Of a stretch of DNA of 64,000 nt, positions 1,791 through 64,000 are shown one piece after another. A program made the translations under genes and the position numbers. This DNA is from a virus, in IMG/VR virus record IMGVR_UViG_3300038701_001282, positions 1-64,000 of that record. One strand, written 5' to 3'. Below the pieces are notes generated by a model that saw nothing but the letters and a program-made list of their open reading frames with translations, did not search any database and was not told the origin of the DNA. Numbering within the stretch: the stretch's first letter is position 1; every line of letters starts with the position of its first letter.

Positions 1791-3845
1791 TTAAAATGGA
1801 GGAGCATCTTTAGATTCAGTACCATCATCTGATGAATCTTCTTCGTTATGGTGTTCTGGAACATCTTCGTAATTAGGCTCTCTGTGAGCCTCCTGCCAAT
1901 CTTCCCAGTCATACATAACATGTTTACCAGGGTCATAGTACCATGGCCCACAAGGCCCTGTAGCAACCCCTCCACGCCCTTTGGTGATAGTTGCGTAGGT
2001 CTTATTACGTTCTTCGGGATCTTCAGCATTCTTGTCTCTTGCCATTAATATATTCACAGACCCCGACTTAAAGATTGCACTTGCGCCATCAAGATCAGCC
2101 TCTTGAGGCATAATGATGTTACCGTCTTTGTCTTTGTTTAGTCGTGATCCAGCCTTATTAAAGTGACAGATATTAACAATAGTTACACTGTCATACTTCT
2201 TAACAAACCTCTTTTCCCAGCGAATAAATGCTTGTTGGTCTCGGAACTCTAGCCCCTCAAACAAGTCATTAAGTGGGTCAAATATGACCAGTCTTACGCC
2301 GAGTGTGACTACAGCCTCTTCAACCTTCTTCTGTACATCCTCGATAGTACCATCTCTATCGTCAACAATGAAGTATTTAGGAGATCCATCCTCATTATAG
2401 TCTAATTCATCAAGCTTTTCTTTATTTTCTTTAATAATATCGATAGCTTTATCATAATTCTTACTTAAGTTAATGCCAAGATGACGTGAATAGATGTTGA
2501 CAGCATATTGACCCTTAGCAAGCTCCAGTGACACAGGCAAGGATAGCTCGGTTAATTCTGTACACCAGAAATAAATAGCCTCACCAATCAAAGATGTCTT
2601 GCCAATACCAGTTGCACCACCTATGTTAATGATAGTACCCCCTGAGAAGCCCCCATTCGTCATCTCCTGGACTTTACGCATAAAGGGTGGTAGACGTATC
2701 TTAGTCTTCTTAAATTCCTCTATGGCTGCCTCACGCATTTCTGCAGAGCTTACGATACCTACAGGTATATGTCTTCTTTTGTTATTGAACAAATCACTAA
2801 CAAAATCCTTAACTAATCCCTTCATCAAATATTCATTAGGGTCTTTCTCTTGCCACAAGATCTTATACACCTTACCTTTTGGTAAGACATCTAAGCATTC
2901 GTCCATGGCCTTATTGCCAGCTTCATCATTGTCTAAAGCTAGTACAATCTCTTCGAAAGAGTTAATCCACTCATAATTGTTCTTAAGTTGGGCTTTTAGG
3001 CTACCCTCTCCAGAGGTAGGACTAACAAATGCTGGCTTATACCAATTCTCCCGGAAATGGCTACTATTGACCATATCGATGCAAGCTTCACGGTCTTCTT
3101 CTCCTCCTACAATGACAAGAGTCTTACCTCCTCCCTTGTAGTGGATTGCTCCGTAAAGATCATTAGTAATTCCTACCCTACCTTCAGAGAAGAATTTCTT
3201 ATCTCGTTTACCTGTTTCCTGGTCAACTATTGGACACTCTCTCTTCTTCATGCCAACTACTTTGAAGTTCTCTGTTGCTAGATACCAACGTGCTATCACC
3301 TCTCCATAGTCATCATACTCTGTACGAACTTTACTTCTTTTGAGTGTTTCGTCACTAATACCTCTGAATCCAGTTCCATGTGGGGCTGAATTTCTGATGA
3401 TCTGATTATATTTCTCGGTTGTTATTGCTGGCTTCTTCTCTTTTTTCTTCATAGTTACCTTTGGTTTAACTTTAACCACATCTTCGTCTTTATTGTTCTT
3501 TAAGTTTATATTGTATCTATCGACCAATATATCAATAGCAGCACCAAAACCAACATCTTCCTCTTTCATTACTACATCTACAATATCCCAAGTCTCAGCA
3601 CAAGCAAAACAGTGGCAGCTTTCCTCTGATACAAGCATAGAGGGAGTGCCATCGTTATGGTATGGGCATTTAACCTTAGCACTCTCGTCTGCATATTCGT
3701 GGTCATAGTGGTCAAACAACTCATATACAGTGACTGAAGACTTAACTTGTGCTATCTCATCTGCAGAGTATTTAGATTTATGTTTAGTAGTTAAAGTATC
3801 AAAGCTCACGATTGGATGCTCCATATTTAGTCCAAACAGCCACAT
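1791..3845 (-). CDS. Bifunctional DNA primase-helicase, T7 gp4-like
   Basis: This 684-residue protein primes and unwinds DNA at the fork. A CHC2-type zinc site is visible (C60-x2-H63, C79-x2-C82), followed by a Toprim core (GGEED 247-251 and DND 305-307), then a RecA-like hexameric helicase with Walker A GATGIGKTS at 410-418. An acidic tail (EDVPEHHNEEDSSDD) ends the protein, as in T7 gp4, where the tail contacts the polymerase. Together with the T7-type polymerase downstream it forms the replisome core. The start is uncertain: neither M1 nor M8 has a strong ribosome site, and the first codons overlap the gene at 3799-3978, so coupled initiation is possible. Confidence 0.93.
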   Translation of the reverse strand: MWLFGLNMEHPIVSFDTLTTKHKSKYSADEIAQVKSSVTVYELFDHYDHEYADESAKVKCPYHNDGTPSMLVSEESCHCFACAETWDIVDVVMKEEDVGFGAAIDILVDRYNINLKNNKDEDVVKVKPKVTMKKKEKKPAITTEKYNQIIRNSAPHGTGFRGISDETLKRSKVRTEYDDYGEVIARWYLATENFKVVGMKKRECPIVDQETGKRDKKFFSEGRVGITNDLYGAIHYKGGGKTLVIVGGEEDREACIDMVNSSHFRENWYKPAFVSPTSGEGSLKAQLKNNYEWINSFEEIVLALDNDEAGNKAMDECLDVLPKGKVYKILWQEKDPNEYLMKGLVKDFVSDLFNNKRRHIPVGIVSSAEMREAAIEEFKKTKIRLPPFMRKVQEMTNGGFSGGTIINIGGATGIGKTSLIGEAIYFWCTELTELSLPVSLELAKGQYAVNIYSRHLGINLSKNYDKAIDIIKENKEKLDELDYNEDGSPKYFIVDDRDGTIEDVQKKVEEAVVTLGVRLVIFDPLNDLFEGLEFRDQQAFIRWEKRFVKKYDSVTIVNICHFNKAGSRLNKDKDGNIIMPQEADLDGASAIFKSGSVNILMARDKNAEDPEERNKTYATITKGRGGVATGPCGPWYYDPGKHVMYDWEDWQEAHREPNYEDVPEHHNEEDSSDDGTESKDAPPF

Positions 3846-12262: not shown

Positions 12263-12501
12263 GCATCACTGAAGCATTTATTCTATTAGGAATACTCTCT
12301 GTAGTTACACCAGCAATAGTGTTTCTAATCTGTCCTATACTAATTATAATACTCACAAAAATCATAAAAGGTATTTGTGTGCTAACTTCTATGCTATTAG
12401 TTGCCTGGATTTATATTGTTACACTAGGGAGAGGAAAAAACTTCAGAGTGACCAAATCCCTGAAAAAATTCATAGAGGAGTACGAACCAAATGAGTTATA
12501 A
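12259..12501 (+). CDS. Small membrane protein, 80 aa
   Basis: Two hydrophobic segments cover residues ~5-34 and ~38-56 (FILLGILSVVTPAIVFLICP; GICVLTSMLLVAWIYIVTL), followed by a basic cytoplasmic tail. The order could suit a holin-like or accessory membrane protein, but there is no direct evidence. It is coupled to both neighbours by overlaps. Confidence 0.6.
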   Translation: MSITEAFILLGILSVVTPAIVFLICPILIIILTKIIKGICVLTSMLLVAWIYIVTLGRGKNFRVTKSLKKFIEEYEPNEL

Positions 12502-13561
12502 ATATCATAAGACAGGACAATTCAGAAACGCTGTTTACAAAATCTGTGAAATGTCTAAGTATAAAGGACAAGACTCAGAAGGGAATGCTATTATTGATGA
12601 ATTAGCAAAACCGCCAGAGATCACTTATGTAGGGTCAGTTAAGCTGCATGGTACTAATGCCAGTATTATTGCACACGAAGATGGATCTATATCGTTTCAT
12701 AGTAAATCAACCTTGCTAGGTAGAATTGATGTAGATGGAGAATTCACCTTAAACAAAGACAACTTTTCTTTTGCTCAAGAAATGAATGAAAGAAGAGAGG
12801 CTGTATTTAGTGTTGTAGCTAAAGTAAAACATTGCGCCAAAAAAGAAGGTATTGAGATTGTGTATCCACTTAAGATTTCTGGTGAGTGGTGTGGCCCTGG
12901 CATTCAAAGCGGAGTGGGAATTTCAGCTTTAGATAAGAAATCATTCTTTGTGTTTGGAGTTAGGGTTGGTGATCAATGGTTAGCATGGAATTCATTTTAC
13001 GTAGGCAATGACACAGTGGCTGGAATCTACGACATATTTCAGTTTCCACATAAATACATTAAGATTGACTTCTGTGAGCCAGCGTTAGCCCAAAACATAC
13101 TGGCTAAATATACAGAAGAAGTAGAGGAGCAGTGCCCCGTAACAGTTAAACTTAAAGAGTATGGAGTTATCCCAGAAGACGCTAGCGAAGTGGGTGAAGG
13201 ATTAGTATGGGTTCCAGAGGAAACTGAGTACGTAAAAGACAGTGATACTTGGTTTAAAACTAAAGGGCAGAAACATTCAGTAACTAAAGTAAAAACTGTA
13301 GCTCAAGTGGATGTTGAGAAGCTTAGCTCTATTGTTGATTTTGTTGACTATGTAGTTACAGAGAACAGGCTTAACCAAGGACTATTAAAAGTTGGTCTAG
13401 ACAGAACTAAAATAGGTGAATATATCAAGTGGGTTAGTTCTGATGTAAATGACGAAGAATCCGACACTCTAGAAAAGAATAACTTGACAATGAAAGATGT
13501 TGGTAAGTATATTAGCAACAAAGCCAGAGAATTCTATTTGTCTAAACTTAACGAGGTTTAA
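12491..13561 (+). CDS. RNA ligase, T4 Rnl2-like
   Basis: The 356-residue protein has the nucleotidyltransferase motifs of the Rnl2 family: motif I VKLHGTN with K51 as AMP acceptor, motif III around FFVFGV, motif IV GEGLVWV, and motif V FKTKGQKHS. Rnl2-type enzymes seal nicked duplex RNA. The gene lies between tRNA-Arg and the tRNA-like locus, so repair of tRNAs cut by host anticodon nucleases is a reasonable inference. Its C-terminal ~90 residues are helical and extend beyond the ligase core. Confidence 0.88.
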   Translation: MSYKYHKTGQFRNAVYKICEMSKYKGQDSEGNAIIDELAKPPEITYVGSVKLHGTNASIIAHEDGSISFHSKSTLLGRIDVDGEFTLNKDNFSFAQEMNERREAVFSVVAKVKHCAKKEGIEIVYPLKISGEWCGPGIQSGVGISALDKKSFFVFGVRVGDQWLAWNSFYVGNDTVAGIYDIFQFPHKYIKIDFCEPALAQNILAKYTEEVEEQCPVTVKLKEYGVIPEDASEVGEGLVWVPEETEYVKDSDTWFKTKGQKHSVTKVKTVAQVDVEKLSSIVDFVDYVVTENRLNQGLLKVGLDRTKIGEYIKWVSSDVNDEESDTLEKNNLTMKDVGKYISNKAREFYLSKLNEV

Positions 13562-16055: not shown

Positions 16056-16077
16056 GGGGGCGAAAGCCCCTCCTTTT
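16056..16077 (+). terminator. Rho-independent terminator
   Basis: GGGGC (16056-16060, plus C16061) pairs with GCCCC across a GAAA tetraloop, followed by TCCTTTT. It closes the rightward operon that begins near 9255 and directly precedes the tRNA-like locus. Confidence 0.75.
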
Positions 16078-16265
16078 CTGAGGTAGCTTAATGGTCATTA
16101 TACTACTTTTTTAGCTAACTGGTAGTATAATGAAGTGAGGAGGTGTATTTAGAGTCGGAAGCTTGGTAGCTCCCTGCCTAAGACCAATAAAATACACTAT
16201 CTATTCACTAGAGCGCTGGACGGTTAATCCAGAAGATGTAGGTTCGAATCCTGCCCTCAGCTCCA
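16077..16265 (+). tRNA. tRNA-Asn-like locus (GTT) interrupted in the D loop
   Basis: The outer parts fold as a tRNA: CTGAGG (16078-16083) pairs with CCTCAG (16255-16260), D stem GCTT/GAGC, anticodon stem CTGGA/TCCAG with loop CGGTTAA (anticodon GTT), T arm GTAGG-TTCGAAT-CCTGC, and an encoded CCA at 16263-16265. Between AATGGT in the D loop (ends 16095) and AGAGC (from 16210) there are about 115 extra bases. These contain a perfect 12-base inverted repeat (16095-16106/16122-16133) and an 8-base one (16143-16150/16190-16197). Position 33 is G instead of U and the first acceptor pair mismatches, so this may be a decayed tRNA or an unusual spliced or structured RNA. Confidence 0.45.
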
Positions 16266-18488: not shown

Positions 18489-18524
18489 GTAACCATACAG
18501 ACAACAACACAAGGGCGGCAGATC

Positions 18525-18884
18525 ATGATTTTTCCAAACTGGCAACAAGTAGAAGTATGTGAAAGAGACGGTTATAAAATATATCTGAATTTCTTAGTAG
18601 AGCATCAAGATCCTTTCCTACATTTTGTGAAAGATTGCGGTTGGTCAAAAGACCAATACCAAGAGATTGACGGTTTTTATTGGTTTTGTGCTGAAGTAGA
18701 GGCCGTGAAATCAGGCTATACTGTAGGTTATGCACATCTGGGAGTATGTTGCTATGCTTCCAAGGAGGGCGTGATAGGGAGTAGTTTGGATACCATGCTA
18801 AACGGGCACATGGAACAATTAATTATTGAAGCAATAGAAGATTGTGATAAAGTAGCTGAATCAGACTTTAACCCTATTTATTAA
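18525..18884 (+). CDS. Hypothetical protein, 119 aa
   Basis: An aromatic- and cysteine-containing soluble protein (FHFVKDCGWSKDQY; HLGVCCYASKEGV). It is the first gene after the promoter at 18461-18488. No family recognised. Confidence 0.65.
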   Translation: MIFPNWQQVEVCERDGYKIYLNFLVEHQDPFLHFVKDCGWSKDQYQEIDGFYWFCAEVEAVKSGYTVGYAHLGVCCYASKEGVIGSSLDTMLNGHMEQLIIEAIEDCDKVAESDFNPIY

Positions 18885-18895
18885 GAGGCGGTACA

Positions 18896-19282
18896 ATGAG
18901 CACTTACAAAAACATTGAAAGATTATATAATGTAGTTTATAAATCAATCGCTAGGATTGACAGTAATCTAAGCTACCCTAGAACCTTAGAAGCTATTAAC
19001 CGCCTATGCGATGCAATCAATACATATTACGATAACGAAGAAAACCAAGACGAATGTATTTGGTATATAGGTGAGTCTAACGAGTTTAGCCTAGATTCTC
19101 TTATAGTTGGGGCTTATTGGTTCACTAGTGATTATCAAGCATTCGATAGGGCACCAAACCAAGAAGCTATAACACAAGGGCAACTATCTACAGTATTCAG
19201 CCCTAATTGCTCTGGTTTGGAGGAAGATAGCGGGGAAAGAGACGTATACGATTTTTTAGAGGCAAAGCGCAATGAAAGTTAA
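18896..19282 (+). CDS. Hypothetical protein, 128 aa
   Basis: Starts after AAGAGGCGGTACA, a form of the cluster's shared leader. Acidic, with WYIGESNEFSLDSLIVGAYW in the middle. No recognised domain. Confidence 0.65.
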   Translation: MSTYKNIERLYNVVYKSIARIDSNLSYPRTLEAINRLCDAINTYYDNEENQDECIWYIGESNEFSLDSLIVGAYWFTSDYQAFDRAPNQEAITQGQLSTVFSPNCSGLEEDSGERDVYDFLEAKRNES

Positions 19283-19361
19283 CTTTTTAACAGCTAATGA
19301 TAATGAACTACACTTTAAAATAGATGATCAAAAGGTGTACAATGAACAAAGCCCAAGCTAA
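19272..19361 (+). CDS. Possible short peptide, 29 aa
   Basis: A 29-codon frame with GAGGC about ten bases upstream bridges the stop of one gene and the start of the next, overlapping both. It could be a real peptide or only a coupling frame. Confidence 0.3.
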   Translation: MKVNFLTANDNELHFKIDDQKVYNEQSPS

Positions 19362-19647
19362 TTACTACATGAAGAAAAAAGCCCCTTTAATATGTAAGCC
19401 TTTTCTAGATTCTGTTAACATTCATACTTTAATTAATAGTAAAGTACCAAAAGAAAAACGAACCTTAGAAAAGGAAAAGATGAAAGCCAGTAACACTTTA
19501 AACCTCATTAAGATTAGACTAAAACTAGGCTATACAGCGAGACAAGCTATAAATCAAGATATGAATTCAACGCCTAGCGACAGAAGGCGGGAAGCTAGGG
19601 CTAAGAAATGGATTAAAAGGCTAAACAGAGAGGCAAAAACACAATGA
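19342..19647 (+). CDS. Hypothetical basic protein, 101 aa
   Basis: ATG 19342 has AAAAGG upstream, whereas an ATG at 19324 has none. The protein is strongly basic (KKKAPLICKPF; RRREARAKKWIKRLNREAK) with a helical middle that resembles a short DNA-binding helix pair (RLKLGYTARQAI). Nucleic-acid binding is plausible, not shown. Confidence 0.6.
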   Translation: MNKAQANYYMKKKAPLICKPFLDSVNIHTLINSKVPKEKRTLEKEKMKASNTLNLIKIRLKLGYTARQAINQDMNSTPSDRRREARAKKWIKRLNREAKTQ

Positions 19648-19883
19648 AGTACAAAACCAAAGTAGTTACATTCGATAATGTAGAGCATGATTGTGTAAGG
19701 GATGCCATAGACCACCTAAAGCGTAGAGAAAGCGCTTTTATGGCTCAGTTTGAACACAGATTAAACATGAAAAAATCTAATGAGGTAAGGGAGGTGATAG
19801 ATTCTAATTTACAATACTTCGTAGAATTAGATAAGATTAGGAAAGACATTAAAGACTATCCCACACATGACGAGGAAGGTTAA
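19644..19883 (+). CDS. Hypothetical helical protein, 79 aa
   Basis: ATGA-coupled to the basic gene before it. Mostly charged helix (IDHLKRRESAFMAQFEHRL). Function unknown. Confidence 0.6.
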   Translation: MKYKTKVVTFDNVEHDCVRDAIDHLKRRESAFMAQFEHRLNMKKSNEVREVIDSNLQYFVELDKIRKDIKDYPTHDEEG

Positions 19884-19886
19884 ACA

Positions 19887-20117
19887 GTGAATACCAAAAC
19901 ACTTAAAGCCATAGGTTGGTTTCATCCATATGAAAACACTTACACTCTAGAAGATGGTGGTAACATCATTAATGCTAAACCATCAGGGCATAGTATTTCA
20001 GATGCTGTTAGAGTAGCCCAGGAGCTAGGCTATACACATGTATTAGTAGATAATTGTTATAAGAAGCCTTATACAATACAAGTGGGAATCCAAGAGGAAC
20101 TATATGACAATGGATAA
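19887..20117 (+). CDS. Hypothetical protein, 76 aa
   Basis: Starts with GTG after GAGGAAGG. It reads as a small alpha/beta protein (IGWFHPYENTYTLEDGG; VRVAQELGYTHVLVDNC). No family recognised. Confidence 0.55.
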   Translation: MNTKTLKAIGWFHPYENTYTLEDGGNIINAKPSGHSISDAVRVAQELGYTHVLVDNCYKKPYTIQVGIQEELYDNG

Positions 20118-20310
20118 ACTAACACACGAAGACACTTTATTGTGCTCTTTATCGATAACTATCATACTTTCAGTATCTGGTCAAATAATGATCGGTTATA
20201 TACATTTACTGTTTTCTATGAGTGCTTTAATACTGTATACCAGTTTTATCGAATTCTTATGCACACATAAGGAACCTAACATTGAAGATATAGAAGAGGA
20301 GCATTATTAG
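20104..20310 (+). CDS. Small membrane protein, 68 aa
   Basis: Two hydrophobic segments (LLCSLSITIILSVSGQIMIG; HLLFSMSALILYTSFIEFL) form a helical hairpin with acidic C terminus. Overlaps the previous gene by 14 bases. Function unknown. Confidence 0.6.
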   Translation: MTMDKLTHEDTLLCSLSITIILSVSGQIMIGYIHLLFSMSALILYTSFIEFLCTHKEPNIEDIEEEHY

Positions 20311-20312
20311 CA

Positions 20313-20501
20313 ATGTGGCCTTTTAAACGATGCAACCATGATTGGAAAGTAATAAATGAGGTAAAAGAAAAGTCTTTTATAGAGAGGACTAATCCAACTA
20401 GGGTAAGGCATATGCATTATGAGTATACCCAAGGTACACATATTCTCACTTGTACTTGTACGAAGTGCGGTAAATTCAAACAAACGGTTAATAAGTATTA
20501 A
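20313..20501 (+). CDS. Small zinc-ribbon-like protein, 62 aa
   Basis: CNHDW near the N terminus and CTCTKCGKFKQT near the C terminus form a zinc-ribbon pattern common among short phage proteins. The middle holds HMHYEY. Nucleic-acid or protein binding is possible; target unknown. Confidence 0.6.
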   Translation: MWPFKRCNHDWKVINEVKEKSFIERTNPTRVRHMHYEYTQGTHILTCTCTKCGKFKQTVNKY

Positions 20502-20510
20502 GGGACAAAT

Positions 20511-20804
20511 ATGGCTATCAATATAATTGAATATTGGGAAGTGCAAGCTTGTTATGATAAGGCTATAGAAACTATAGCTTATTTTGATAACGAGCAAGCA
20601 GCTAAAGCTTTAGCTAATAAGAGTGTATATAACTCATACACACATAAAAAAGTAATAACAGTCAGCGGCGAAAAGGAAATATCTGAGGCTGCTAAAAGAG
20701 AACGAGTTCTAAAAGCTATAGAAGGTATGGCAGGATCAGACAAACAAGCCTTGTATGAGTACTTAAAGGAAGAATACACTAGCAATGCAACTCAGATACG
20801 CTGA
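20511..20804 (+). CDS. Hypothetical protein, 97 aa; last rightward gene before hairpin region
   Basis: The N-terminal half is an alpha/beta segment (IIEYWEVQACYDKAIETIAYF) and the C-terminal half charged helix. Stop at 20804 is followed by a terminator hairpin at 20874. No family recognised. Confidence 0.6.
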   Translation: MAINIIEYWEVQACYDKAIETIAYFDNEQAAKALANKSVYNSYTHKKVITVSGEKEISEAAKRERVLKAIEGMAGSDKQALYEYLKEEYTSNATQIR

Positions 20805-20873
20805 GGCTTAACAGACGAATCCACACCTGATGTTCTACCCTTTACCTATACCAACCTACCACCTATATGCTAA

Positions 20874-20891
20874 AAGCCCCTCACGGGGCTT
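20874..20891. terminator. Terminator-like hairpin
   Basis: AAGCCCC-TCAC-GGGGCTT is a perfect 7-base stem with a tetraloop just after the last rightward gene. It lacks a long T run, so strength is uncertain. It is also the first of the hairpin series described next. Confidence 0.6.
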
Positions 20892-22147
20892 AGAATGCGT
20901 TCTAGTGCTATGCACTAAATATCCCCTTTATATTCCCTAGAATATAGTATTACTTTTATTACTACTAATTATGGTGGTATTAGACTTACATTGTATTAAG
21001 ACTCTGTATGTAATACATACAATAGCATTAGTTTATGTACTACGTACATATGATAGCTATTTATGATGAGTAATTATATCTTGATGGGTGCTATAATTGG
21101 TAAATTATGTTTAAGAGATGTATAATACTTGGTGTATTGTGTTTAGCACATTTCCCTTGCGTATGCAAGAAATCTTTCAATAATTCTTAGAATAATTACA
21201 TTATTCATCTAATCCTTCTTATTTCTTACAGAAATATACTAATCTAACCTAATATAAGCCCTTCTCAGAGCATTAATAATTATCTATGCCAATGCATAGG
21301 GTATAGCTATACCTACGCTTAGAGCGTATTACAGAGCTTAGGCATTGTGGTTACACAATAGAAGGGTGGCTATAAGATGAGATTAATATTAGGTAGGATT
21401 GGCTTACTTATTGCTTAGCAATATAAATAGGATAAGAAACATACAGATAACGCAGTTGTACTGCGCATAATATCCATTATGTTAAATAGGTGATTTTTAA
21501 GTTATATACACTATGTTTCATAGTAGAAAATACTCTTAAAATACAGTGATATTTTATAATTATAGCTTGCTTTTGAGGTGTAGGTGTGGTAGTGCTAAGC
21601 ACCAATCTTGTAAATTTATTGAATCCTTCAAAATATAACCAACACACCATAGATTATTATTTCATGTCTAGAGACATAGATAGTGCTCTTAACTATAAGT
21701 CTAATACATACCAATATTGATATTTTTCAGATGTAATATTATCGATAGATCGATAAAAGTGAGTTCAAAATTTTAAATTTTAGTATTAGAGTATGTCCTC
21801 GGACAGAGGACTAAAGGTAGGAATGATATATTGTATCAATAACAGGTATATTTTAGTATTAGAACTAAAGTTCTAGTATACTCATACTAATATCTTAGAT
21901 ATTTTAGGATAGTACTACAAAAGATAGGTAATTCTCTGGGAATACAGCAAAATCAATATCTGGAGAGGAGCGTAGCGAGGATTTAGATATTGGGGCGCTG
22001 TTGGTAAAGGGTGGTATTATCGTTATAAACGATATTTTATCTGTTATTTGGTTGTTTATTGTTGTTTCTTAAGTATTAGATTTGAGGTGAGGTGGTACTT
22101 TAGTATTATGTAGGGCAGGGAACACCCCTGTACAGCTCTCTCAGGGG
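20891..22147. other. Gene-free convergent region packed with ~28 short perfect hairpins
   Basis: No gene is supported between 20805 and 22184. Perfect stems of 5-8 bases with mostly 2-4 base loops occur at 20891-20904, 20903-20917, 20929-20946, 21005-21021, 21034-21050, 21156-21169, 21220-21236, 21284-21299, 21300-21313, 21314-21328, 21344-21359, 21409-21423, 21451-21465, 21510-21524, 21619-21631, 21664-21677, 21739-21756, 21767-21781, 21795-21811, 21860-21875, 21874-21889, 21889-21903 and 22018-22034, plus looser ones at 21072-21098, 21538-21555, 21592-21602, 21824-21838 and 22125-22147. Stem sequences differ from one another, while loops often begin with T (TAT, TAC, TAG, TTA). The region lies where rightward and leftward transcription meet. 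Confidence 0.7.
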
Positions 22148-22184
22148 CTTTATGTTGAAATAGGTAGGTTAGGTAGGGTTAGTA

Positions 22185-22445
22185 TTAAAGTCCTTTAAGA
22201 TACTCCAGCCTGCTTTTACCCGATATATTTTTAATAGCCCTCTCTAGGGCTTCCTCCCAACACCAAAGCCTGCTTCTACCTGCATATGTAAATCTAATTA
22301 GCGACTCACTACACAAATCGCAAGACCTTGAAAAGTCATACTCGCTCAATATTCTGTCTATTTCGCTATACTTCCTTGCCTTAAAAAGCTCGGTTATTTT
22401 ATTGCACATAGGCAATATATCTTTCATTTCAGTGTGTTTTTTCAT
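22185..22445 (-). CDS. Hypothetical protein, 86 aa
   Basis: A helical protein with a SRSCDLCSES cysteine pair and SRLWCWEEALERAI near the C terminus. The ribosome site is weak. It is the last gene of the leftward accessory block before the hairpin region. Function unknown. Confidence 0.55.
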   Translation of the reverse strand: MKKHTEMKDILPMCNKITELFKARKYSEIDRILSEYDFSRSCDLCSESLIRFTYAGRSRLWCWEEALERAIKNISGKSRLEYLKGL

Positions 22446-22481
22446 GCGTCACTTCTTAGTTGCTATACAAGGTACTCTTGA

Positions 22482-22624
22482 GAGTTGTGCTGCACTGAGT
22501 CGAATCTAACTCTCAGTCCGTGTCGCTTTAGTAAAGACTCGAATAACCTCGTCTGTTTTAGCTATCGGCCCCATCCGCTTATATCGGGGCATGCATTCGA
22601 TTTACATGCTTTACAACACAACTC
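22482..22624 (-). ncRNA. Candidate structured RNA, copy A
   Basis: A gap of ~200 bases between small genes is closed by a perfect 8-base helix (22482-22489 with 22617-22624). On the minus strand the helix extends four more pairs (TTGT with GCAG, two of them G-U), which fails on the plus strand and so suggests leftward transcription. The ends closely resemble those of 32084-32236: both have TGTGTTGT near the 5' end, and AGTTAG-TTC and GCAGCACA near the 3' end. No long reading frame or tRNA fold fits. I infer a paralogous pair of structured RNAs of unknown class. Confidence 0.5.
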
Positions 22625-22645
22625 ACAGGAATACCCTGTTATTTA

Positions 22646-22945
22646 TTAAAAGTTTCTAAAACTAATCGCGCGCGTAATTTTTACATAAAATCTTGGAAGA
22701 TTAGCAACGGCAATATCTGGTGCCAACCAAGGACTAAATTCAAACCCAGTGCAACGATAACCTTTCTCTGGATTATGCTTTGGCGCAAACAGGCCAACAT
22801 GAGTTCCACACCACCCTCGAAGCAACCCAGGAAATAAAAATATGGCTGTATACCTTACCTGCACTCTAAGTAGCGAGTTTTTACACTGGCCATCCATAAC
22901 ATTAAATTGAATACCAACCAAATAAGGAATATTAATATCACTCAT
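22646..22945 (-). CDS. Hypothetical protein, 99 aa
   Basis: AAGGTG precedes the start. The sequence is beta-rich with several tryptophans and prolines (FLFPGLLRGWCGTHVGLF; FEFSPWLAPDIAV). No family recognised. Confidence 0.55.
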   Translation of the reverse strand: MSDINIPYLVGIQFNVMDGQCKNSLLRVQVRYTAIFLFPGLLRGWCGTHVGLFAPKHNPEKGYRCTGFEFSPWLAPDIAVANLPRFYVKITRAISFRNF

Positions 22946-22964
22946 ACATCACCTTTGTTTGTTG

Positions 22965-23234
22965 TTAAAAACAAATATCACAAGAGCAATACGATCGGTT
23001 GCCGCCACTTGCAATGCTTCCGCTTTCACAATTTTTTGAACCTTTGAATGAAGGTCCAAAGCTATAACTTGAAACTTTCCCAACATCAAAAAACTTTTTG
23101 CCATCTTCACTGTCACGATAGGGCTTGACGCACTCCTCACAAACTAATGCCTCTCTATGCGATAGGTCTCCTTTTTTTGTGACTTTGTATTTTGCTTCAT
23201 TTGTGCATTGGTTTCTATTTCCGCAACATTTCAC
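22965..23234 (-). CDS. Cysteine-rich putative zinc protein, 89 aa
   Basis: Cysteines are arranged CCGNRNQC, then CEEC, and CSCDIC near the end, suggesting zinc binding. AGGAGGGG precedes the ATG. An overlapping frame at 22949-23140 is ignored as it has no ribosome site. Function unknown. Confidence 0.6.
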   Translation of the reverse strand: MKCCGNRNQCTNEAKYKVTKKGDLSHREALVCEECVKPYRDSEDGKKFFDVGKVSSYSFGPSFKGSKNCESGSIASGGNRSYCSCDICF

Positions 23235-23237
23235 AAT

Positions 23238-23495
23238 CTACCCCTCCTCTTTGTTATCTAATACTGCATATAATGCGTGATCGTAGTCGGCTGGGTACGT
23301 GTGTCCATCGCATTGATATTTATGCTCTCGTATAGCCGCCTCTAGCTCTTTTATGCGCTTATCCTTCTCTGACTCTGGCTTTAATGCTTGCGCCTCGTCG
23401 TAAATCTCACGAGCTATACGTACAGCCCACTGGCTGACGCGATCACATTCCACTATTATTTTTTCTTGTGCTTTGTAAAAATATTGGTCACTCAT
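23238..23495 (-). CDS. Hypothetical helical protein, 85 aa
   Basis: Charged helix with a KDKRIKELEAAIREHKYQCDGH segment suggests a coiled coil. ATG 23495 overlaps the preceding stop (TGATG). Function unknown. Confidence 0.6.
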   Translation of the reverse strand: MSDQYFYKAQEKIIVECDRVSQWAVRIAREIYDEAQALKPESEKDKRIKELEAAIREHKYQCDGHTYPADYDHALYAVLDNKEEG

Positions 23496-23629
23496 CACTT
23501 CACCGGCCTATTTAATTGTTCGTTTAGTTTCTTAATCTTGTTTAACGCTGTTTTATAACCTTCCTCTAAAGCAGCATTTCTATCAAGCGCCTTGTTTAAT
23601 AATTCGCTTTCGAATAAACCTTTATCCAT
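23495..23629 (-). CDS. Small coiled-coil protein, 44 aa
   Basis: MDKGLFESELLNKALDRN is nearly the same as the start of the protein at 34208-34528 (MDKNLFENELLNKALLRI), so I take ATG 23629, with GAGG upstream, as the start; ATG 23647 is an alternative. The rest is a short coiled coil. These are paralogs 11 kb apart in the same leftward block. Confidence 0.55.
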   Translation of the reverse strand: MDKGLFESELLNKALDRNAALEEGYKTALNKIKKLNEQLNRPVK

Positions 23630-23639
23630 TACTTCATCC

Positions 23640-24044
23640 TCACTCATCGTAGAATTCCAATTGAGGACATACCTTAGCCTTCTTGGCTTTAATCCAAGCA
23701 ACCAATAAGTTATCTTCTTTAGTTGTAGGTAACATGTTTTCCTGGCGTAGGTACTCTTCTTCTATCTTTCTTTTAGTTCTGATATCACTTAAGATGGCAC
23801 CTAATAACATAACTAATATGAATCCTCCAGTAAGGGCATGTACTTCCAGATCTTCAAAGAAAAACTGCAATAAGACTGTAGAAATAAGAAACAATACAAG
23901 ACATACCACCACTATTCCTCCTAGAATTACAACCAAACCTAGTACAACCTTCCAGAAGTAAAGGCATAAGCTATTAGGTACAATCTTAGGGCTGCATACA
24001 AGAGATGCTATTTTGTAGTGGATACTATTTTTATTTATTTTCAT
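23640..24044 (-). CDS. Membrane protein with two spans, 134 aa
   Basis: ATG 24044 follows AGAGGAAG. Two hydrophobic segments (VVLGLVVILGGIVVVCLVLFLI and FILVMLLGAIL) are separated by a short acidic loop; both ends are probably cytoplasmic. Function unknown. Confidence 0.65.
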   Translation of the reverse strand: MKINKNSIHYKIASLVCSPKIVPNSLCLYFWKVVLGLVVILGGIVVVCLVLFLISTVLLQFFFEDLEVHALTGGFILVMLLGAILSDIRTKRKIEEEYLRQENMLPTTKEDNLLVAWIKAKKAKVCPQLEFYDE

Positions 24045-24393
24045 TAGACTTCCTCTTAATAGTGATAACCTTAATTCTCTTTTTGTTGGCTTGGTTAGTG
24101 ATATTATCTGTACCAGAGCCACCAGGGAATGCTACCAGAACATCTGCATTTAAGTCAAGCATTACTGAGTTTCTAATTGGGCCTGCTGCCTTACCATGTA
24201 GTTTCCAATTAGGAGGAACTATAACTTCTTGTACTCCATTATCTCTAGCCCATTTACCACTTAGTTTGTCTACACCTTCACAATTACCATGAATCAATAC
24301 TTCTATTTGTAGTTGATTGTTAGCTAAGTCTAAGGCTTCTCGTATAAATGGCTCGTCATTGAAGTCTCTGCCTCCACACACCACTATGACCAT
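24031..24393 (-). CDS. DUF2493/YAcAr SLOG-family nucleotide-binding protein
   Basis: The 120-residue protein shows the family signature in order: VVCGGRDF at the N terminus, LIHGNCEGVDKLSGKWA, VPPNWKLHGKAAGPIRNSVM, and AFPGGSGTDN. SLOG proteins have a Rossmann-like fold that binds nucleotide ligands; several act as sensors or effectors near defence systems. Here it is a single-domain protein in a leftward accessory operon. It overlaps the genes on both sides by 10-14 bases. Confidence 0.85.
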   Translation of the reverse strand: MVIVVCGGRDFNDEPFIREALDLANNQLQIEVLIHGNCEGVDKLSGKWARDNGVQEVIVPPNWKLHGKAAGPIRNSVMLDLNADVLVAFPGGSGTDNITNQANKKRIKVITIKRKSNENK

Positions 24394-24875
24394 TCGTTGT
24401 TAACCTCTAAGTCAGGCTCTTCTAAGAGTCTTTTTGCTACGTCTCGGTAATGTTGAATAATATCTGTTAAGTGTAACGGAACTATGAAGTCATCACCAGG
24501 CACATTCTTATCAAAAGCTAGCTCACTACAAAACAGAAGGCCTCCAAAATCATTTCCCCATAGTTCAAGGTTTACTCTGGCCCAATCTTCAAGCTCAATA
24601 TGATCTACAAACCCTAGTTTATCTGCAAGTATATCTGCCCCTTTTACGTAGAATTCATCCTTTCTTTCTAATTTCGTTGGAGAAATACTTGAGTACATTA
24701 TTGCAGCCCAACCTCCATGGCAAGCTGGAGTGTCACAAAGATTTACTTCTTCTTCTCTTTTATCACAAGGTTCATCCATGTCTACTGCTGTTTCAGCTAA
24801 GTTATTTTTAATAACAAAGTCTTCAAAATCTTGTGCTACTCGTAGAAACTTTCCTGCTAGCTCTTTATGTTTCAT
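24384..24875 (-). CDS. Hypothetical protein, 163 aa
   Basis: Acidic protein with cysteines in EPCDKREEEVNLCDTPACHGGW, which could bind a metal. The C-terminal half is helical. No family recognised. Confidence 0.6.
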   Translation of the reverse strand: MKHKELAGKFLRVAQDFEDFVIKNNLAETAVDMDEPCDKREEEVNLCDTPACHGGWAAIMYSSISPTKLERKDEFYVKGADILADKLGFVDHIELEDWARVNLELWGNDFGGLLFCSELAFDKNVPGDDFIVPLHLTDIIQHYRDVAKRLLEEPDLEVNNEWS

Positions 24876-44641: not shown

Positions 44642-46288
44642 ATGTATTCATCTTGGGAGAAGGTTACTCCTCAACCCGGAAAACAAACTCTTGCCATGTC
44701 TCTTGTAGGTAAGGTGGATTTCATGTTGTGGGGTGGAAGTAGGTATGGAGGGAAAACTGAATTACTTACTATGATCCCAACAATGTTCTGTGATGATGCA
44801 TATTATCGTGGAATTTATTTCAGAAATACATATGGCGAGATCACTGGAGCAGGCTCATTATGGGACAAAGCAGAAGGTATTTACCCACTTTTCGATGCAA
44901 CTAGCAGGCAGAACCCGTTACACTGGAGATGGCCTTCTGGTTGTCAACAATACTTCACATACATGGACGCAGAAGGAGATAAGGAATCTCATCGTGGTAA
45001 GGGGTACAGTTTTGTTGGGTTTGATGAAATAAATAAATTTAGTAAAACTCAAATAACTTTCATGTTTACATGCCTTCGTTCAGAAGCTGAGGTAGATGCA
45101 ACAATGATAGGGACTCTGAACCCAGATCCAGACTCTTGGTGTTTAGAATTAGTTGAGTGGTACTTAGATGAAGAGGGGTTTCCTGATTTAGATAAGTGTG
45201 GAACTATCAGATATTTTATCATAGACGATAATAATGATTTTATCTTTGCAGATTATCCTGAATGGTTTGAAGAGCAAGGAGACGAATATGAAAAATATTT
45301 GTATGTCTATGATGAAGTTGAAGATGAAACAACATATACACCTCCCAGATCATTCACATATATCTTTTTTAATATACATGACAATCCAGCAGGTAAGAAG
45401 GCTGAACCTCGCTACTTAATGAACTTAAACAATCTTCCAGACCATGAACGTAAGACACAGTTATTAGGTAATTGGTATGCAAAACCTAAAGCTGTTTCCA
45501 TGTGGGACAGAGATTGGGTAAGAGGCGAAAATGGAAGTAAAGTTTTGTCTAGATCTGATATTCCAGGAAATTGCATAACAGTCAGAGGACTAGATAAGGC
45601 CCACACAGAACCAAACAATAACAATAGGTATCCAGACTATACTGCTATATCCCCTAAAATCAAGAAGGACTCTGATGGCTTTTATTATTTAATCGGAGAT
45701 TATGATCCCACAATAAAAGACCCAGAAGTTGTTAAGAAGGGGAGTTCACAGCGTAAGCCATGCCTCGGAAGATTCAGAAAAGGCCCAGGCGCAAGAGATG
45801 CGCTTATCACCAAACAACTTAAGTTAGATAACGAGTACGAGAAGGTAACACTAATTGTACCAAAAGATTCTGGTGGTGGTAAGTCAGATGGTATTTATAC
45901 CAAGGCTAAACTACTAGAAGAGAAGATTCCAGTAGAGGAAGGAACAACTCAATCAAACATACCCGACAAGAAAATTAAGGATTTCTCTCCTTTTGCAAAT
46001 GCTTGTCAAATGGGGTTAGTTCATATAGTTGAAGACAGTTTTGATCCTTACACATTAAGAATTATTTATCAAGAATTAGAAAATTTTAACGGCGAGAGAT
46101 CTACCTCAGCTAGAAAAGATGACTTTGTGGATGCCATCTCAATCGGATTTAATTTTTTAATAGATTGTAGAAAGCCTTACTCAACACCTTCATTCAACAC
46201 TTCAGAAGAATTGAATAAGTCACTAAGTTATGAACTAACAAAAACAAATATATTAGAGGACTACCATGACCCAACAAAAAGATACTGA
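44642..46288 (+). CDS. terL: Terminase large subunit
   Basis: The 548-residue packaging motor has an ATPase domain with Walker A GGSRYGGKT (~32-40) and Walker B-like GYSFVGFDEI (~120-128), and a C-terminal nuclease region with VRGLDKA and PDYTAIS carrying acidic residues. A DFVDAISIGF segment near the end matches the final nuclease motif. It cuts and packages DNA through the portal gene downstream. Confidence 0.9.
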   Translation: MYSSWEKVTPQPGKQTLAMSLVGKVDFMLWGGSRYGGKTELLTMIPTMFCDDAYYRGIYFRNTYGEITGAGSLWDKAEGIYPLFDATSRQNPLHWRWPSGCQQYFTYMDAEGDKESHRGKGYSFVGFDEINKFSKTQITFMFTCLRSEAEVDATMIGTLNPDPDSWCLELVEWYLDEEGFPDLDKCGTIRYFIIDDNNDFIFADYPEWFEEQGDEYEKYLYVYDEVEDETTYTPPRSFTYIFFNIHDNPAGKKAEPRYLMNLNNLPDHERKTQLLGNWYAKPKAVSMWDRDWVRGENGSKVLSRSDIPGNCITVRGLDKAHTEPNNNNRYPDYTAISPKIKKDSDGFYYLIGDYDPTIKDPEVVKKGSSQRKPCLGRFRKGPGARDALITKQLKLDNEYEKVTLIVPKDSGGGKSDGIYTKAKLLEEKIPVEEGTTQSNIPDKKIKDFSPFANACQMGLVHIVEDSFDPYTLRIIYQELENFNGERSTSARKDDFVDAISIGFNFLIDCRKPYSTPSFNTSEELNKSLSYELTKTNILEDYHDPTKRY

Positions 46289-60501: not shown

Positions 60502-61884
60502 ATGGCAATAAACACAGTATCAGTTACAATCGACTTAGCTACTACTCCCGCTACTCAAGCTGGGTTCGGTACTCAGTTGTTTGTAAGTACTAATAAATTT
60601 TTTAATGAGAGAGTTCGAGTTTTCAACTCTCTGGAAGATGCAGAAGATCTGCCTTCAAACTCAGATGAGTATAAAGCAATTTCTATGCACTTTAACCAGT
60701 CTCCAAGCCTACCGATTAAGATTGGCCGTAGAGATACAACTCAAGTGCAATTAACTCCAATCAGTGTTGATGAAGGTGATGTTTTCTCTTTCACAATCAC
60801 AGTTAATGATGGAGATGACCTCGACGTAACTTACACTGCTGGCGCTGCAGAGACTGCAACTGATGTTGCAACAGCTATTGTATCCCAGATCCAAGGTAAT
60901 GCTGCTGTAGCTGCTCACGTAACTGCTACTGATAACACTGGCTCATTGACTATCGTAGAAGATTCTGCAAGTGATTTCTTTTATATTTCAAATGCATCCT
61001 CTAACTTCACTTACACTGCAACCTCTTCTGAGACTCCTGCAGATGTACTTGATGCAGTTGAATTGGCAGATCCAGATTACTATGGTATTACTTTCAACGA
61101 GACTAATGATGCAACTGTATTGCTTATGGCTGCTCAGGCTGAAGCACGTAACAAGTTGTTCTTGTACTGTACTGCTGACACTGCTGTACTAACTGCATGG
61201 AATAAAACTGACTCAGGTGTTGATGTACTAGCTGACTTGAACTTAGTTTCACGTAGGCAATCTGTTGGTATCTTCCACCATGAAGCACAAGACACTTTCC
61301 CAGAAGTAGGTGTATTTGCTTATTTCGCTGGACGTGGATATCAACCTGGAACTATTACTTGGAACTGGAAAACTATTTCAGGTGTAGGCCCAGCACAGAA
61401 CCCAACATCAGGTGAAGTTCTTACTGCTACAGAGATTGGTTATGTTAAATCTCGTAACGCTAACACATTTGAGCGTGAAGCTGTAGGCACTATCTTTGGC
61501 CCAGGCTCTGTTGCTAAAGGTACTGGATCAGGTACTGGTGAGTGGATTGAGCATGTAACTTCTAAAGACTTCTTGACAGCTCGAATCACTGAAGCTTACA
61601 AGACTAAGTTCTATAATCTTAACAAGATTAGCTATAGCTCTGTTGGTATTAACAGCCAGAAGTCTACTCTAGCTACTGTACTTAACCGTTATGTAGAAAC
61701 TGAGACTACTCCAAATATTCTGGATATTGATCGTCCTTATGAGTTGATCTTCCCTCAGTCAACAGATGTATCTTTTGCTGATAAGGCAAGTCAAACATTA
61801 CCAGTTAGTTTTAAAGCTTATTTGTCTGGAACTCAAACTAGTATAGTAGTTCAAGGCACATTGACTTTTAACGCTAGCGTTTAA
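60502..61884 (+). CDS. Contractile tail sheath protein (DUF3383-like)
   Basis: 460 residues. The opening AINTVSVTIDLATTPATQAG, the YYGITFNETNDATVLLMAAQ region and GRGYQPGTITWNWKTISGVG are typical of DUF3383 sheath proteins of myoviruses. The C-terminal QSTDVSFADKASQTLPVSFK is the usual sheath end. It shows that the phage has a contractile tail. Confidence 0.88.
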   Translation: MAINTVSVTIDLATTPATQAGFGTQLFVSTNKFFNERVRVFNSLEDAEDLPSNSDEYKAISMHFNQSPSLPIKIGRRDTTQVQLTPISVDEGDVFSFTITVNDGDDLDVTYTAGAAETATDVATAIVSQIQGNAAVAAHVTATDNTGSLTIVEDSASDFFYISNASSNFTYTATSSETPADVLDAVELADPDYYGITFNETNDATVLLMAAQAEARNKLFLYCTADTAVLTAWNKTDSGVDVLADLNLVSRRQSVGIFHHEAQDTFPEVGVFAYFAGRGYQPGTITWNWKTISGVGPAQNPTSGEVLTATEIGYVKSRNANTFEREAVGTIFGPGSVAKGTGSGTGEWIEHVTSKDFLTARITEAYKTKFYNLNKISYSSVGINSQKSTLATVLNRYVETETTPNILDIDRPYELIFPQSTDVSFADKASQTLPVSFKAYLSGTQTSIVVQGTLTFNASV

Positions 61885-61902
61885 TAAGAGGATTTCAACA
61901 TA

Positions 61903-62400
61903 ATGATTTTACCAGCATATATATCTAGAAATATTGCTATGGCTTGGGGAGACATCACGTTTGATGGCCTAGCTCCTGAGTTTTTAACGATTACTCCTAA
62001 CGCTGACATCTCCAGTACTGTAGTAGGTGCAGATGGTGCTCGTGCTCCTTCAATCAGCCCTGACTACACCTGTCAAGTAGCTGTCACTTTGCAGCAGAAT
62101 TCACCAACCAATCGTAAATTAGCTTGGTACTTGAATTCACAACGTGCACAACGTGGCTTGGGTGTAATGGATTTCACTTTGAATGATCCTTCAGGTGGTA
62201 CATTTACACTATTAAAAGAAGCATACTTACAGTCTGGCCCAGAGCAAGATTTTGGTTCAGAGCCAGGTACTCGTACTTGGACTTGGAATGCTGAACTTAA
62301 CTATGATCAATTAGCATCTGGTGTTGAGTTTACTTCAAGCATTGCAGCTACTATTGAAGCTGAGATTAATGCAGCAGTAAGTTTATCTTTATCGCTATAA
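61903..62400 (+). CDS. Tail tube protein (DUF3277-like)
   Basis: 165 residues directly after the sheath. IAMAWGDITFDGLAPEFLTI, GARAPSISPDYTCQVAVTLQ and DFTLNDPSGGTFTLLKEAYL are features of tube proteins of this type. It forms the inner tube within the sheath. Confidence 0.82.
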   Translation: MILPAYISRNIAMAWGDITFDGLAPEFLTITPNADISSTVVGADGARAPSISPDYTCQVAVTLQQNSPTNRKLAWYLNSQRAQRGLGVMDFTLNDPSGGTFTLLKEAYLQSGPEQDFGSEPGTRTWTWNAELNYDQLASGVEFTSSIAATIEAEINAAVSLSLSL

Positions 62401-62413
62401 TTAAATAGAAAGT

Positions 62414-62457
62414 CCTACCTCGAAAGCCTCTTAATAATGCTCAAACTTCGGGGTAGG
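62414..62457 (+). terminator. Hairpin after tail tube gene
   Basis: CCTACCTCGAA (62414-62424) pairs with TTCGGGGTAGG (62447-62457), one G-U pair, with a short T tail. Probably an attenuating terminator between tube and chaperone genes. Confidence 0.6.
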
Positions 62458-62488
62458 CATTTTAATAAATAATTGTTGAGAGAGAACA

Positions 62489-63028
62489 ATGAAAGAGCTT
62501 AAATCATCTGATATGCAAGCAGAGCTTGGTATCAAAGAAGAAACTATCGATGGTCATCGATTTGAGATTAAATTATTGCCTTGTGGCCCAGCAGGTGAAT
62601 TATTCATTGAAATTATGGATATCATAGGCCCAGGATTAGGTACTGTAGTAGATAAGATGCAAAACTATCACTATATAGAACCAGAAGACAATACAGCATT
62701 TACCGAAGTAATTAACACTTTTACCAGTAAGTTAGCTAGAGGTAACTATAACACTGTATTAGATATTGTATTAGAAGGGTGTCTTATTGATGGCGTACCT
62801 TTTGACAGAAATAAACATTTACGAGGGAAGTTTGGTACTTATGTATCTTTAGTTAAGTTAGCATTGGAGGCAAACTTCTCTGATTTTTTTACTGGTGTTC
62901 TCAGGGATATGGGTTTGGAAATCCCTACCTTGAGCGGCTTAATGGCAACGATCAAGGAGATGGCAGAGGAGCGTCAGTCGATGACTCAAGCAGTCTCGGA
63001 AGATTTGGAAAACGAATCTCAAGAATAA
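62489..63028 (+). CDS. Tail assembly chaperone, gpG-like
   Basis: 179-residue helical protein between tube and tape measure, the standard place for a chaperone that coats the tape measure during tail assembly. Codons 132-134 (GAT TTT TTT) contain seven T at 62884-62890, a -1 slippery site. Downstream an overlapping -1 frame remains open to 63249. Confidence 0.8.
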   Translation: MKELKSSDMQAELGIKEETIDGHRFEIKLLPCGPAGELFIEIMDIIGPGLGTVVDKMQNYHYIEPEDNTAFTEVINTFTSKLARGNYNTVLDIVLEGCLIDGVPFDRNKHLRGKFGTYVSLVKLALEANFSDFFTGVLRDMGLEIPTLSGLMATIKEMAEERQSMTQAVSEDLENESQE

Positions 63029-63249
63029 TTAAAGAGAATGATTCTTTAGGTACTTGGAAGCAAGTTATATTCGATGCTTATTCATCTAAGTATTGTAAAA
63101 TACAAGACTGGAGAGAGTTGTATTACAATTACTACCCTAAAGAATTTTTAAACCTCTTTGAATTTATTTGTCAAAAAGAAGCCATTGAAGAAGCAGTACA
63201 TAAAGATGCTGAGGCAAAAGCTAAACAAGCTAACAATAAGGCTAGGTAA
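62884..63249 (+). CDS. Tail assembly chaperone, -1 frameshift extension (gpGT-like)
   Basis: The -1 frame opens directly at T-TTT-TTT (62884-62890), right after a TGA in that frame at 62881-62883, and runs to TAA 63247. It has no ATG or GTG start with a ribosome site, so it must be made by frameshifting. The fusion would be 134 + 119 = 253 residues. The extension includes the helical GTWKQVIFDAYSSKYCKIQD and ends three bases before the tape measure gene, as in lambda-type G/GT pairs. Confidence 0.78.
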   Translation, partial: FFYWCSQGYGFGNPYLERLNGNDQGDGRGASVDDSSSLGRFGKRISRIIKENDSLGTWKQVIFDAYSSKYCKIQDWRELYYNYYPKEFLNLFEFICQKEAIEEAVHKDAEAKAKQANNKAR

Positions 63250-63251
63250 TT

Positions 63252-64000
63252 ATGGCAGGAACTAATAATAGGGGCATGGATTATACTTTAAAGATCGGTG
63301 CTGATTTCTCTGCTGTAGAGAAGTCTCAGAAACGGATTGAGGCTGTCTTAAAGCGTACTGGAAGGGTAGAAAGAACCTTCAACAGAGAGAGAATCAACGC
63401 TGCTAATAAGCTCCTAACCTTAGAGAAAAGAATAGCTAATGAAAGACTTCGAGGTATGAGGTCTTCTAGTGTAGCAGCTTCAGCACAAAGAGAGTTAGTT
63501 AGGTCAGAAGCTTCTTTGAGAAGAGGTACTTCAAGGGAAGCTTTTACTGCTCCAAGCTCGCGTTTAGTATCTCCTGTACAGACCCAAGATCAAATAAATA
63601 GAGCTGGAGAACTTAGAGACAAGTTAACACAAAGAACTGATGTATTTGACACCAAAGCTTTAGATGACATTAATCGAAGGATTGATCGAATCCAAGGCAA
63701 AATGCGTAAGACTACTAATCCTCTCGAGTTCAGAAGATTGAAGAGAGAGTTGACTGGAGTAAACACTCAAGTTAATAAGACAATCCGTAACTATGACAGA
63801 CTTAATCGTAAGATGTCTATGTCTCAGTTTGCTACTAATGGATTGTCCAGTTCCTTGATGAACTTAGGTAGATCATATGTTTCTGTATTTGCTATCATTG
63901 AGGGTGCTACAGCCTTCATTAGAATTACTAAGCAAATTGAAACTGCAGAAGTAGCTTTACTTAATGCAGCAGGCAGTGCAGAACAAGCAGCTCAGGATTT
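63252..64000 (+). CDS. Tape measure protein, N-terminal part
   Basis: Starts ATG 63252 and is cut by the window end (249 residues visible). The early MDYTLKIGADFSAVEKSQKR and the long helical charged segments, followed by SVFAIIEGATAFIRITKQIE, are typical of tape measure proteins that set tail length. The following order is expected to be baseplate genes. Confidence 0.85.
   Translation, partial: MAGTNNRGMDYTLKIGADFSAVEKSQKRIEAVLKRTGRVERTFNRERINAANKLLTLEKRIANERLRGMRSSSVAASAQRELVRSEASLRRGTSREAFTAPSSRLVSPVQTQDQINRAGELRDKLTQRTDVFDTKALDDINRRIDRIQGKMRKTTNPLEFRRLKRELTGVNTQVNKTIRNYDRLNRKMSMSQFATNGLSSSLMNLGRSYVSVFAIIEGATAFIRITKQIETAEVALLNAAGSAEQAAQD

Follow-up and report, generated by a model that had tools for sequence, protein, structure and literature searches.

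What does a gene-free segment of 1.4 kb, lying between converging genes and filled with small hairpins, do in the genome of a tailed phage? The segment is found in the window, by which we mean the whole stretch of DNA analysed here (64,000 nucleotides, positions 1 to 64,000 of the IMG/VR record IMGVR_UViG_3300038701_001282). The complete record has 72,545 bases, and besides the genes listed below it encodes a thymidylate synthase, a PhoH-like protein, a ribonucleotide reductase, a portal and a major head protein. The segment, its hairpins (stem arms in capitals, loops in lower case, no strand assigned) and the genes used as landmarks are as follows.

1791-3845, minus strand, primase/helicase
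12491-13561, plus strand, RNA ligase
20511-20804, plus strand, final rightward ORF on the left of the array (97 aa, without family match)
20805-22184, no strand, gene-free segment with the hairpin array; proposed genome-terminus (direct terminal repeat, DTR) region from counts and from gene order against relatives
20874-20891, hairpin AAGCCCC tcac GGGGCTT
20903-20917, hairpin TAGTGC tat GCACTA
20929-20946, hairpin TATATTC ccta GAATATA
21005-21021, hairpin TGTATGT aat ACATACA
21034-21050, hairpin TATGTAC tac GTACATA, with a C(GTA)G loop on the minus strand
21093-21108, hairpin ATAATT ggta AATTAT
21124-21138, hairpin AATAC ttggt GTATT
21156-21169, hairpin CTTGC gtat GCAAG
21190-21206, hairpin GAATAAT tac ATTATTC
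21220-21236, hairpin TATTTCT tac AGAAATA
21284-21299, hairpin CTATGC caat GCATAG
21300-21313, hairpin GGTAT agct ATACC
21314-21328, hairpin TACGCT tag AGCGTA
21344-21359, hairpin ATTGTG gtta CACAAT
21409-21423, hairpin TATTGC tta GCAATA
21451-21465, hairpin CGCAGT tgt ACTGCG
21466-21481, hairpin CATAAT atcc ATTATG
21510-21524, hairpin ACTATG ttt CATAGT
21619-21631, hairpin TTGAA tcc TTCAA
21664-21677, hairpin ATGTC taga GACAT
21739-21756, hairpin TTATCGA taga TCGATAA
21767-21781, hairpin AAAATT tta AATTTT
21795-21811, hairpin GTCCTC ggaca GAGGAC
21829-21841, hairpin TATTG tat CAATA
21860-21875, hairpin TAGAAC taaa GTTCTA
21889-21903, hairpin AATATC tta GATATT
22018-22034, hairpin TATCGTT ata AACGATA
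22116-22130, hairpin CAGGG aacac CCCTG, at the array edge
22185-22445, minus strand, final leftward ORF on the right of the array (86 aa, without family match)
44642-46288, plus strand, TerL

Perfect, non-overlapping Watson-Crick stems with loops of 3-5 nt numbered 28, 21 and 8 in 20805-22184 for minimum lengths of 5, 6 and 7 bp. The same counts in 500 dinucleotide shuffles of this segment had means of 6.9, 2.3 and 0.7 and maxima of 14, 8 and 5, so that the observed values were never reached. When 2-nt loops were included the counts became 29, 23 and 9. These values agree with a sequence-only reading of the locus, which had reported about 29 inverted repeats and had named examples at 20874-20917, 21284-21328 and 21860-21903 that proved exact. 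It had also described the surroundings correctly as gene-free and convergent: the rightward ORF ends at 20804, the leftward one ends at 22185, and no ORF of at least 80 aa (indeed none above 57 aa) lies between them. Hairpins cover about 32% of the segment. Across the 72,545-base record the density of stems of at least 6 bp was 15.2 per kb inside the array and 1.2 per kb outside it (ratio 12.6); most 1.4-kb windows held 0-5 of them, and the array is unmatched elsewhere in the stretch. The hairpin-dense array is thereby confirmed as real.

Little sequence is common to the stems. The most frequent 5-mer was found in only 3 arms, in line with the earlier statement that the stems are unlike each other and form no tandem repeat, and a repeat search of the stretch returned no inverted-repeat family with a common sequence. 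The spacing is periodic but there is no common unit sequence as in a tandem repeat. Mobile hairpin elements (REP-like), which had been proposed as well, are likewise not supported, the arms sharing nothing beyond this 5-mer. Two regularities had been missed by the sequence-only reading. One is a spacing near 30 nt: 12 pairs of hairpins lay 27-33 nt apart from centre to centre where 3.8 were expected (0 of 3000 simulations), and distances of 57-66 nt were in excess too (p 0.009). The other is a bias in the pair that closes the loop, which was 5'-C..G or T..A at 20 of 25 loops. The format of such arrays can be described as a stem of 5-8 bp, a loop of 3-4 nt, usually a 5' pyrimidine at the loop-closing pair, and no shared sequence.

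The phage itself stands rather alone. A DNA search of 18500-24500 in phages gave no close relative, and a comparison of the flanking proteins and TerL with viral contigs was empty as well. Homology in primase, TerL, portal, head and tail proteins, at about 25-44% identity, links it to Alteromonas PT11-V22, Limnohabitans DC31, Curvibacter P26059A, Pseudoalteromonas H101 and the PaP1, Felix O1 and rV5 groups. The gene order TerL, structural genes, primase side, rightward genes, array, leftward genes is common to the window, PT11-V22 and PAK_P1. Two RNAs were also noted in the record. A tRNA at 16077-16262 (plus strand; Rfam 39 bits; anticodon loop GTT, Asn) is interrupted by about 115 bases in the D-loop region and was missed by ARAGORN. 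A match to the abiF RNA family (62418-62454, plus strand, 44.6 bits against a gathering value of 37) lies between two ORFs of the structural region; this family is associated with Abi-type abortive infection genes.

Comparable arrays were present in distantly related myophages, namely Alteromonas PT11-V22, Pseudoalteromonas H101 and PH357, Pseudomonas PAK_P1, CHA_P1 and SYP, and Vibrio qdvp001. The syntenic convergent gap of PT11-V22 (69366-70986) held 12 stems of at least 6 bp against 2.2 expected. The corresponding numbers (expected in brackets) were 21 (2.6) in H101, 27 (3.5) in PH357, 15 (0.7) in SYP and 10 (1.8) in qdvp001, and within terminal repeats (DTRs) 13 (0.8) in PAK_P1, 16 (0.8) in EM and 5 (0.5) in CHA_P1. 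None of 500 shuffles reached these counts and the inside/outside density ratios ran from 6 to 14.5, though the single p-values carry a selection effect because the arrays were located by genome scans from which the densest stretch was picked. As a control, we used 120 IMG/VR loci (1.07 Mb) retrieved with an unrelated generic terminator pattern; only three of them reached at least 10 stems per kb, and all three are Pakpunavirus homologs. The 30-nt spacing was significant in the window, PH357, qdvp001 and H101, and not significant in the PAK_P1, EM, CHA_P1, PT11-V22 and SYP arrays. Strong hairpins stand at the edges of several arrays, and the window hairpin at 20874-20891 is similar to the strong left-edge hairpins of PT11-V22 (AAAGCCCCT tctac AGGGGCTTT) and qdvp001 (AAGCCCC tctac GGGGCTT).

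About half of the tested relatives were without an array, so that the element does not occur throughout this group. No hairpin-rich array turned up in the scanned rV5-like and Rheinheimera phages, the DC31 gap at 19820-20750 and the P26059A gaps showed no hairpin excess, and the 343-bp terminal repeat in the phi92 record is not hairpin-rich. Some candidates were set aside. A stretch of the Felixounavirus phiWec177 (8 stems per kb) resembled a weak array but was not counted: annotated genes overlap it, and it is not a site at which records begin or end. The stretch of Aeromonas phiA009 (L143:2500-4400) was significant and was given little weight, since a transposase is annotated in it and related records lack most of it; the transposase gene is 65% like Prevotella Lak megaphages at the DNA level and is missing from other Aeromonas relatives. 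In a further locus (L271) the stems share sequence (CTGCACAT etc.) and are located in ORFs. Another contig (L061:1-1200, IMGVR_UViG_3300021961_001367), from a distant phage with a distant primase homolog, had 15 stems of at least 6 bp in 1.2 kb against 0.8 expected, in a stretch that overlaps ORFs. The gene right after the H101 array (L128:1548-2861; H101 61548-62864) is homologous, at 27-29% identity, to genes of G011 and Acinetobacter phage YMC13/03/R2096.

Where genome ends of relatives are mapped or annotated, the arrays coincide with them. PAK_P1 67000-68932 aligns, in two places, with the end of the PaP1 record (89780-91715), and a terminal redundancy of 1190 bp was determined for PaP1 by run-off sequencing (PMC3652863). 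The annotated DTR of EM (93584-94775) maps to PAK_P1 67766-68932, and the terminal repeat of C11 is 1173 bp long (PMC5175280). The CHA_P1 record annotates tandem repeats at 61954-62707 and 62708-63461, a site at which related records, PS24 and Ab03 among them, start or end. The qdvp001 array aligns at two places to 138048-138948 of the 139,011-base record of R16F, for which PhageTerm gave a fixed end with a 353-bp DTR (PMC10152775). Mapping by simple offset put 6 qdvp001 hairpins in this DTR, 8 to its left and 6 to its right, and the array overshoots the repeat by about 0.6 kb on the left and about 0.4 kb on the right. As hairpins lie on both sides of the R16F repeat, the array corresponds to the terminus region and not to the repeat alone; the PAK_P1 array likewise overshoots its mapped DTR by about 0.3-0.4 kb on the left. 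The SYP record starts with its array, and 351 bases are repeated at its ends, either as a real repeat or through an assembly overlap. The link between array and terminus is strong in the relatives. The window array corresponds in genome position to these mapped termini by way of PAK_P1, whose array matches the mapped PaP1 end; the proteins of this phage and its relatives share only some 30-40% identity. From this gene order and the shared array format, the array would be the terminus of the window phage as well. No end repeat was seen in its 72,545-base record.

Selection was examined in Pakpunavirus, using an alignment (A2) of eight sequences and a structure of 33 helices made from hairpins seen in at least two of them. 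In this structure 88.7% of cells were paired against 28-41% when it was slid, a comparison that favours it because it was built from hairpins of the same sequences. Changes on both sides of a stem were found at 11 pairs (18 cells, against 3-9 in slid controls); the cell count was reached by 0 of 500 shuffles and the pair count by 16 of 500. Examples are CTTAGC tgtc GCTAAG, which is ATTGGC tacc GCCAAT in EM, and CCAAGC gtt GCTTGG, which is TCAAGC gtt GCTTGA in PAK_P1. Further pair types, one of the five covariation measures, were not raised, which speaks against covariation. In the non-coding left part, invariant columns made up 91.6% of stems, 77.9% of loops and 59.1% of spacers; stems and spacers differed little or not at all in the ORF and right flank of the DTR. 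Given the invariance and the double changes, the support for conserved pairing is mainly stem conservation with modest covariation.

The ORF inside the Pakpunavirus repeat (L211:1034-1663, L113:8097-8699) is annotated as an HNH endonuclease in many records. It holds 6, 7 and 6 hairpins of at least 6 bp in PAK_P1, EM and JG005, where synonymous-codon shuffles give about 1 and none of 1000 reaches the observed number; the excess is weaker in SPA05 and EPA3 (reached by 7 and 26 of 1000 shuffles). Within this ORF the hairpins differ between clades. A short motif, GCATGACA, recurs beside hairpins of the non-coding terminal part (A2 columns 120-180 and 640-660). The sequence-only reading had suggested selection on folding without conserved sequence. 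In Pakpunavirus this is borne out by stems that are kept, by some compensatory changes and by hairpins imposed on coding sequence; the window phage itself gave no such support. Since it has no close relative, both the terminus and the selection rest on its relatives.

Several lines of evidence bear on whether the hairpins act as DNA or as RNA. Of 184 array hairpins, 81.5% had 5'-C..G-3' or T..A (5'-Y..R-3') as the pair closing the loop; the share was 48% in shuffles and 53% in the remainder of these genomes. Both GNA/GNNA loops and complementary ones (TNC) occur, GNA/TNC being enriched in most arrays; 7 of the 25 loops in the window belong to GNA/GNNA or its complement, with 2.7 expected (p 0.015). 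Loops in both orientations are as expected if either strand may fold. Folding of nine window tiles as single-stranded DNA gave a mean z of about -2.4 and centroids that were mostly a string of hairpins. Folded as RNA, the same tiles had a mean z of about -1.7, and other, long-range pairings displaced several hairpins. Counts of G-U wobbles preferred no strand. No enrichment of T-runs was found after the stems on either strand, the T content being at background; terminator-like sites numbered 3 against 0.9 expected, and the array does not follow the pattern of an intrinsic terminator, a GC-rich stem followed by a T-run. A search for Rfam families returned only a chance-level snoRNA (E 3.8). Taken together, the loop closures in both orientations, the better folding as single-stranded DNA and the lack of T-runs favour DNA over RNA or terminators. 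None of these lines is decisive alone, and C-G closing pairs favour RNA loops too.

An explanation has to cover the excess of hairpins, the occurrence of such arrays in relatives as well, their position at mapped or annotated termini of several of these phages, and the retention of stems in Pakpunavirus. We think it probable that the array is the physical terminus region of a linear virion genome (DTR and flanks), collapsed in the assembly to one internal copy, and that its hairpins act as DNA. We infer that the acting molecule is single-stranded DNA. The stretch may turn single-stranded by resection of the infecting ends, by strand displacement when the terminal repeat is duplicated, or by end maturation at packaging, and each single strand would then become a string of mini-hairpins. 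Their likeliest use would be end replication: a 3' end within the array might fold back and prime synthesis, as reported for N4. With many hairpins, such priming would be insensitive to the position of the end cut. This fold-back priming is the least certain part of the proposal, and we hold it to be rather doubtful. In the window the inverted repeats are present and predicted to fold as single-stranded DNA, at what is a putative genome end. Among the earlier guesses that of a replication origin came nearest, as the array coincides with termini in relatives, although a genome terminus had not been proposed.

The main rival is a packaging-start (pac) element, in which the terminase small subunit or a partner would read the hairpins, small cruciforms or a structure phased at about 30 bp, and cut the concatemer nearby. 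It would suit arrays that sit at mapped termini, a spacing near three helical turns in four of them and an array that in the R16F mapping exceeds the repeat to its left and right. However, stems of 5-8 bp are short for cruciform extrusion, some 25 sites scattered over more than 1 kb are a large number for a cut site, and the regular spacing lacks significance in the arrays of Pakpunavirus and Nankokuvirus, the phages with the best-documented ends. We regard packaging recognition as unlikely, and the other alternatives as less likely than it. One of these is that hairpins at the ends are a by-product of mutation, in which template switching or fold-back synthesis writes short inverted repeats without function into tolerant DNA. 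Perfect Watson-Crick stems without shared sequence, a location at DNA ends that would provide the mechanism, and ORF hairpins that differ between clades would all agree with this. But neutral writing alone does not predict non-coding Pakpunavirus stems far more conserved than their spacers, nor does it fit the bias in loops and closing pairs, and its probability is low.

Equally low is that of a transcription barrier, one of the functions proposed from the sequence, which would halt or delay converging RNA polymerases and thus keep transcription across the terminus low. It is not favoured by the data on T-runs and terminator-like sites given above; moreover, many stems are AT-rich and weak, and the rightward ORF inside the DTR carries imposed hairpins too. 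For it speak the convergent setting in the window, the strong hairpins at several array edges, and gp113 of PAK_P3, which lies at the predicted genome terminus and is the only gene reported as untranscribed (PMC4933390). The same gene counts against the large structured RNA that had also been suggested, either non-coding or a 3' untranslated region full of hairpins. Such an RNA would be in keeping with stems that are conserved and show some compensatory changes, and according to its annotation PAK_P4 has a putative antisense RNA at some point of the homologous stretch. The missing Rfam match, the modest RNA folding scores with their displaced hairpins, the G-U pairs without strand preference and the loops in both orientations make it the least probable of all. 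The reading as a DNA terminus region is the one that we prefer.

If this reading is right, its use would go beyond a single locus. Apart from T7, N4 and a handful of others, the duplication and protection of ends in phages with long terminal repeats are poorly known. A recognisable and widespread structural mark of the end would allow termini to be predicted from sequence alone, also in metagenomic contigs. In PaP1-like phages the hairpins are defined targets for removal or scrambling, and the array is a clear case of DNA structure laid over coding sequence.

Among known systems, the hairpin array lies on or around the documented DTRs of PaP1-like (Pakpunavirus) and PAK_P3-like (Nankokuvirus) phages and R16F. 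The PAK_P1 array holds the same place in gene order as that of the window, for which a DTR is only proposed. The PaP1 paper found no inverted repeats longer than 26 bp and concluded that there is no complicated secondary structure (PMC3652863). Our search of the literature on hairpins at such terminal repeats found no description of them. The chances seem about even that the arrays represent a class of phage genome-end element that has not been described before. In this view some 20-30 DNA mini-hairpins would form a code of structure alone that covers the terminus and even runs through a protein-coding gene; selection would maintain it while single hairpins are exchanged, and it would be common to several genera within a large myophage group. 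Pakpunavirus loops such as AGC gaa GCT, AGC gga GCT and AGC tcc GCT fit, on one strand or the other, the stable DNA mini-hairpins of the d(GCGNAGC) type with C(GNA)G loops; in the window only the 7 loops mentioned above conform. The telomeres of linear Streptomyces chromosomes are dense in short palindromes with small loops, which are thought to fold in single-stranded 3' overhangs. These telomeres differ by being GC-rich and by their conserved palindromes; they are capped by a terminal protein. In T7 the DTR is duplicated during concatemer maturation with a hairpin end described as an intermediate; the likeness would lie in this duplication, but T7 has a single structure and a short repeat, and is not known to have a hairpin array. 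The nearest described mechanism is that of N4, which according to the summary in PMC3896407 has a DTR some 500 bp long, inverted repeats at its 3' ends and hairpin-primed DNA synthesis that starts at the ends. The likeness would lie in inverted repeats at a terminus, of which that summary mentions some, against a kilobase array of about 25 mini-hairpins here.
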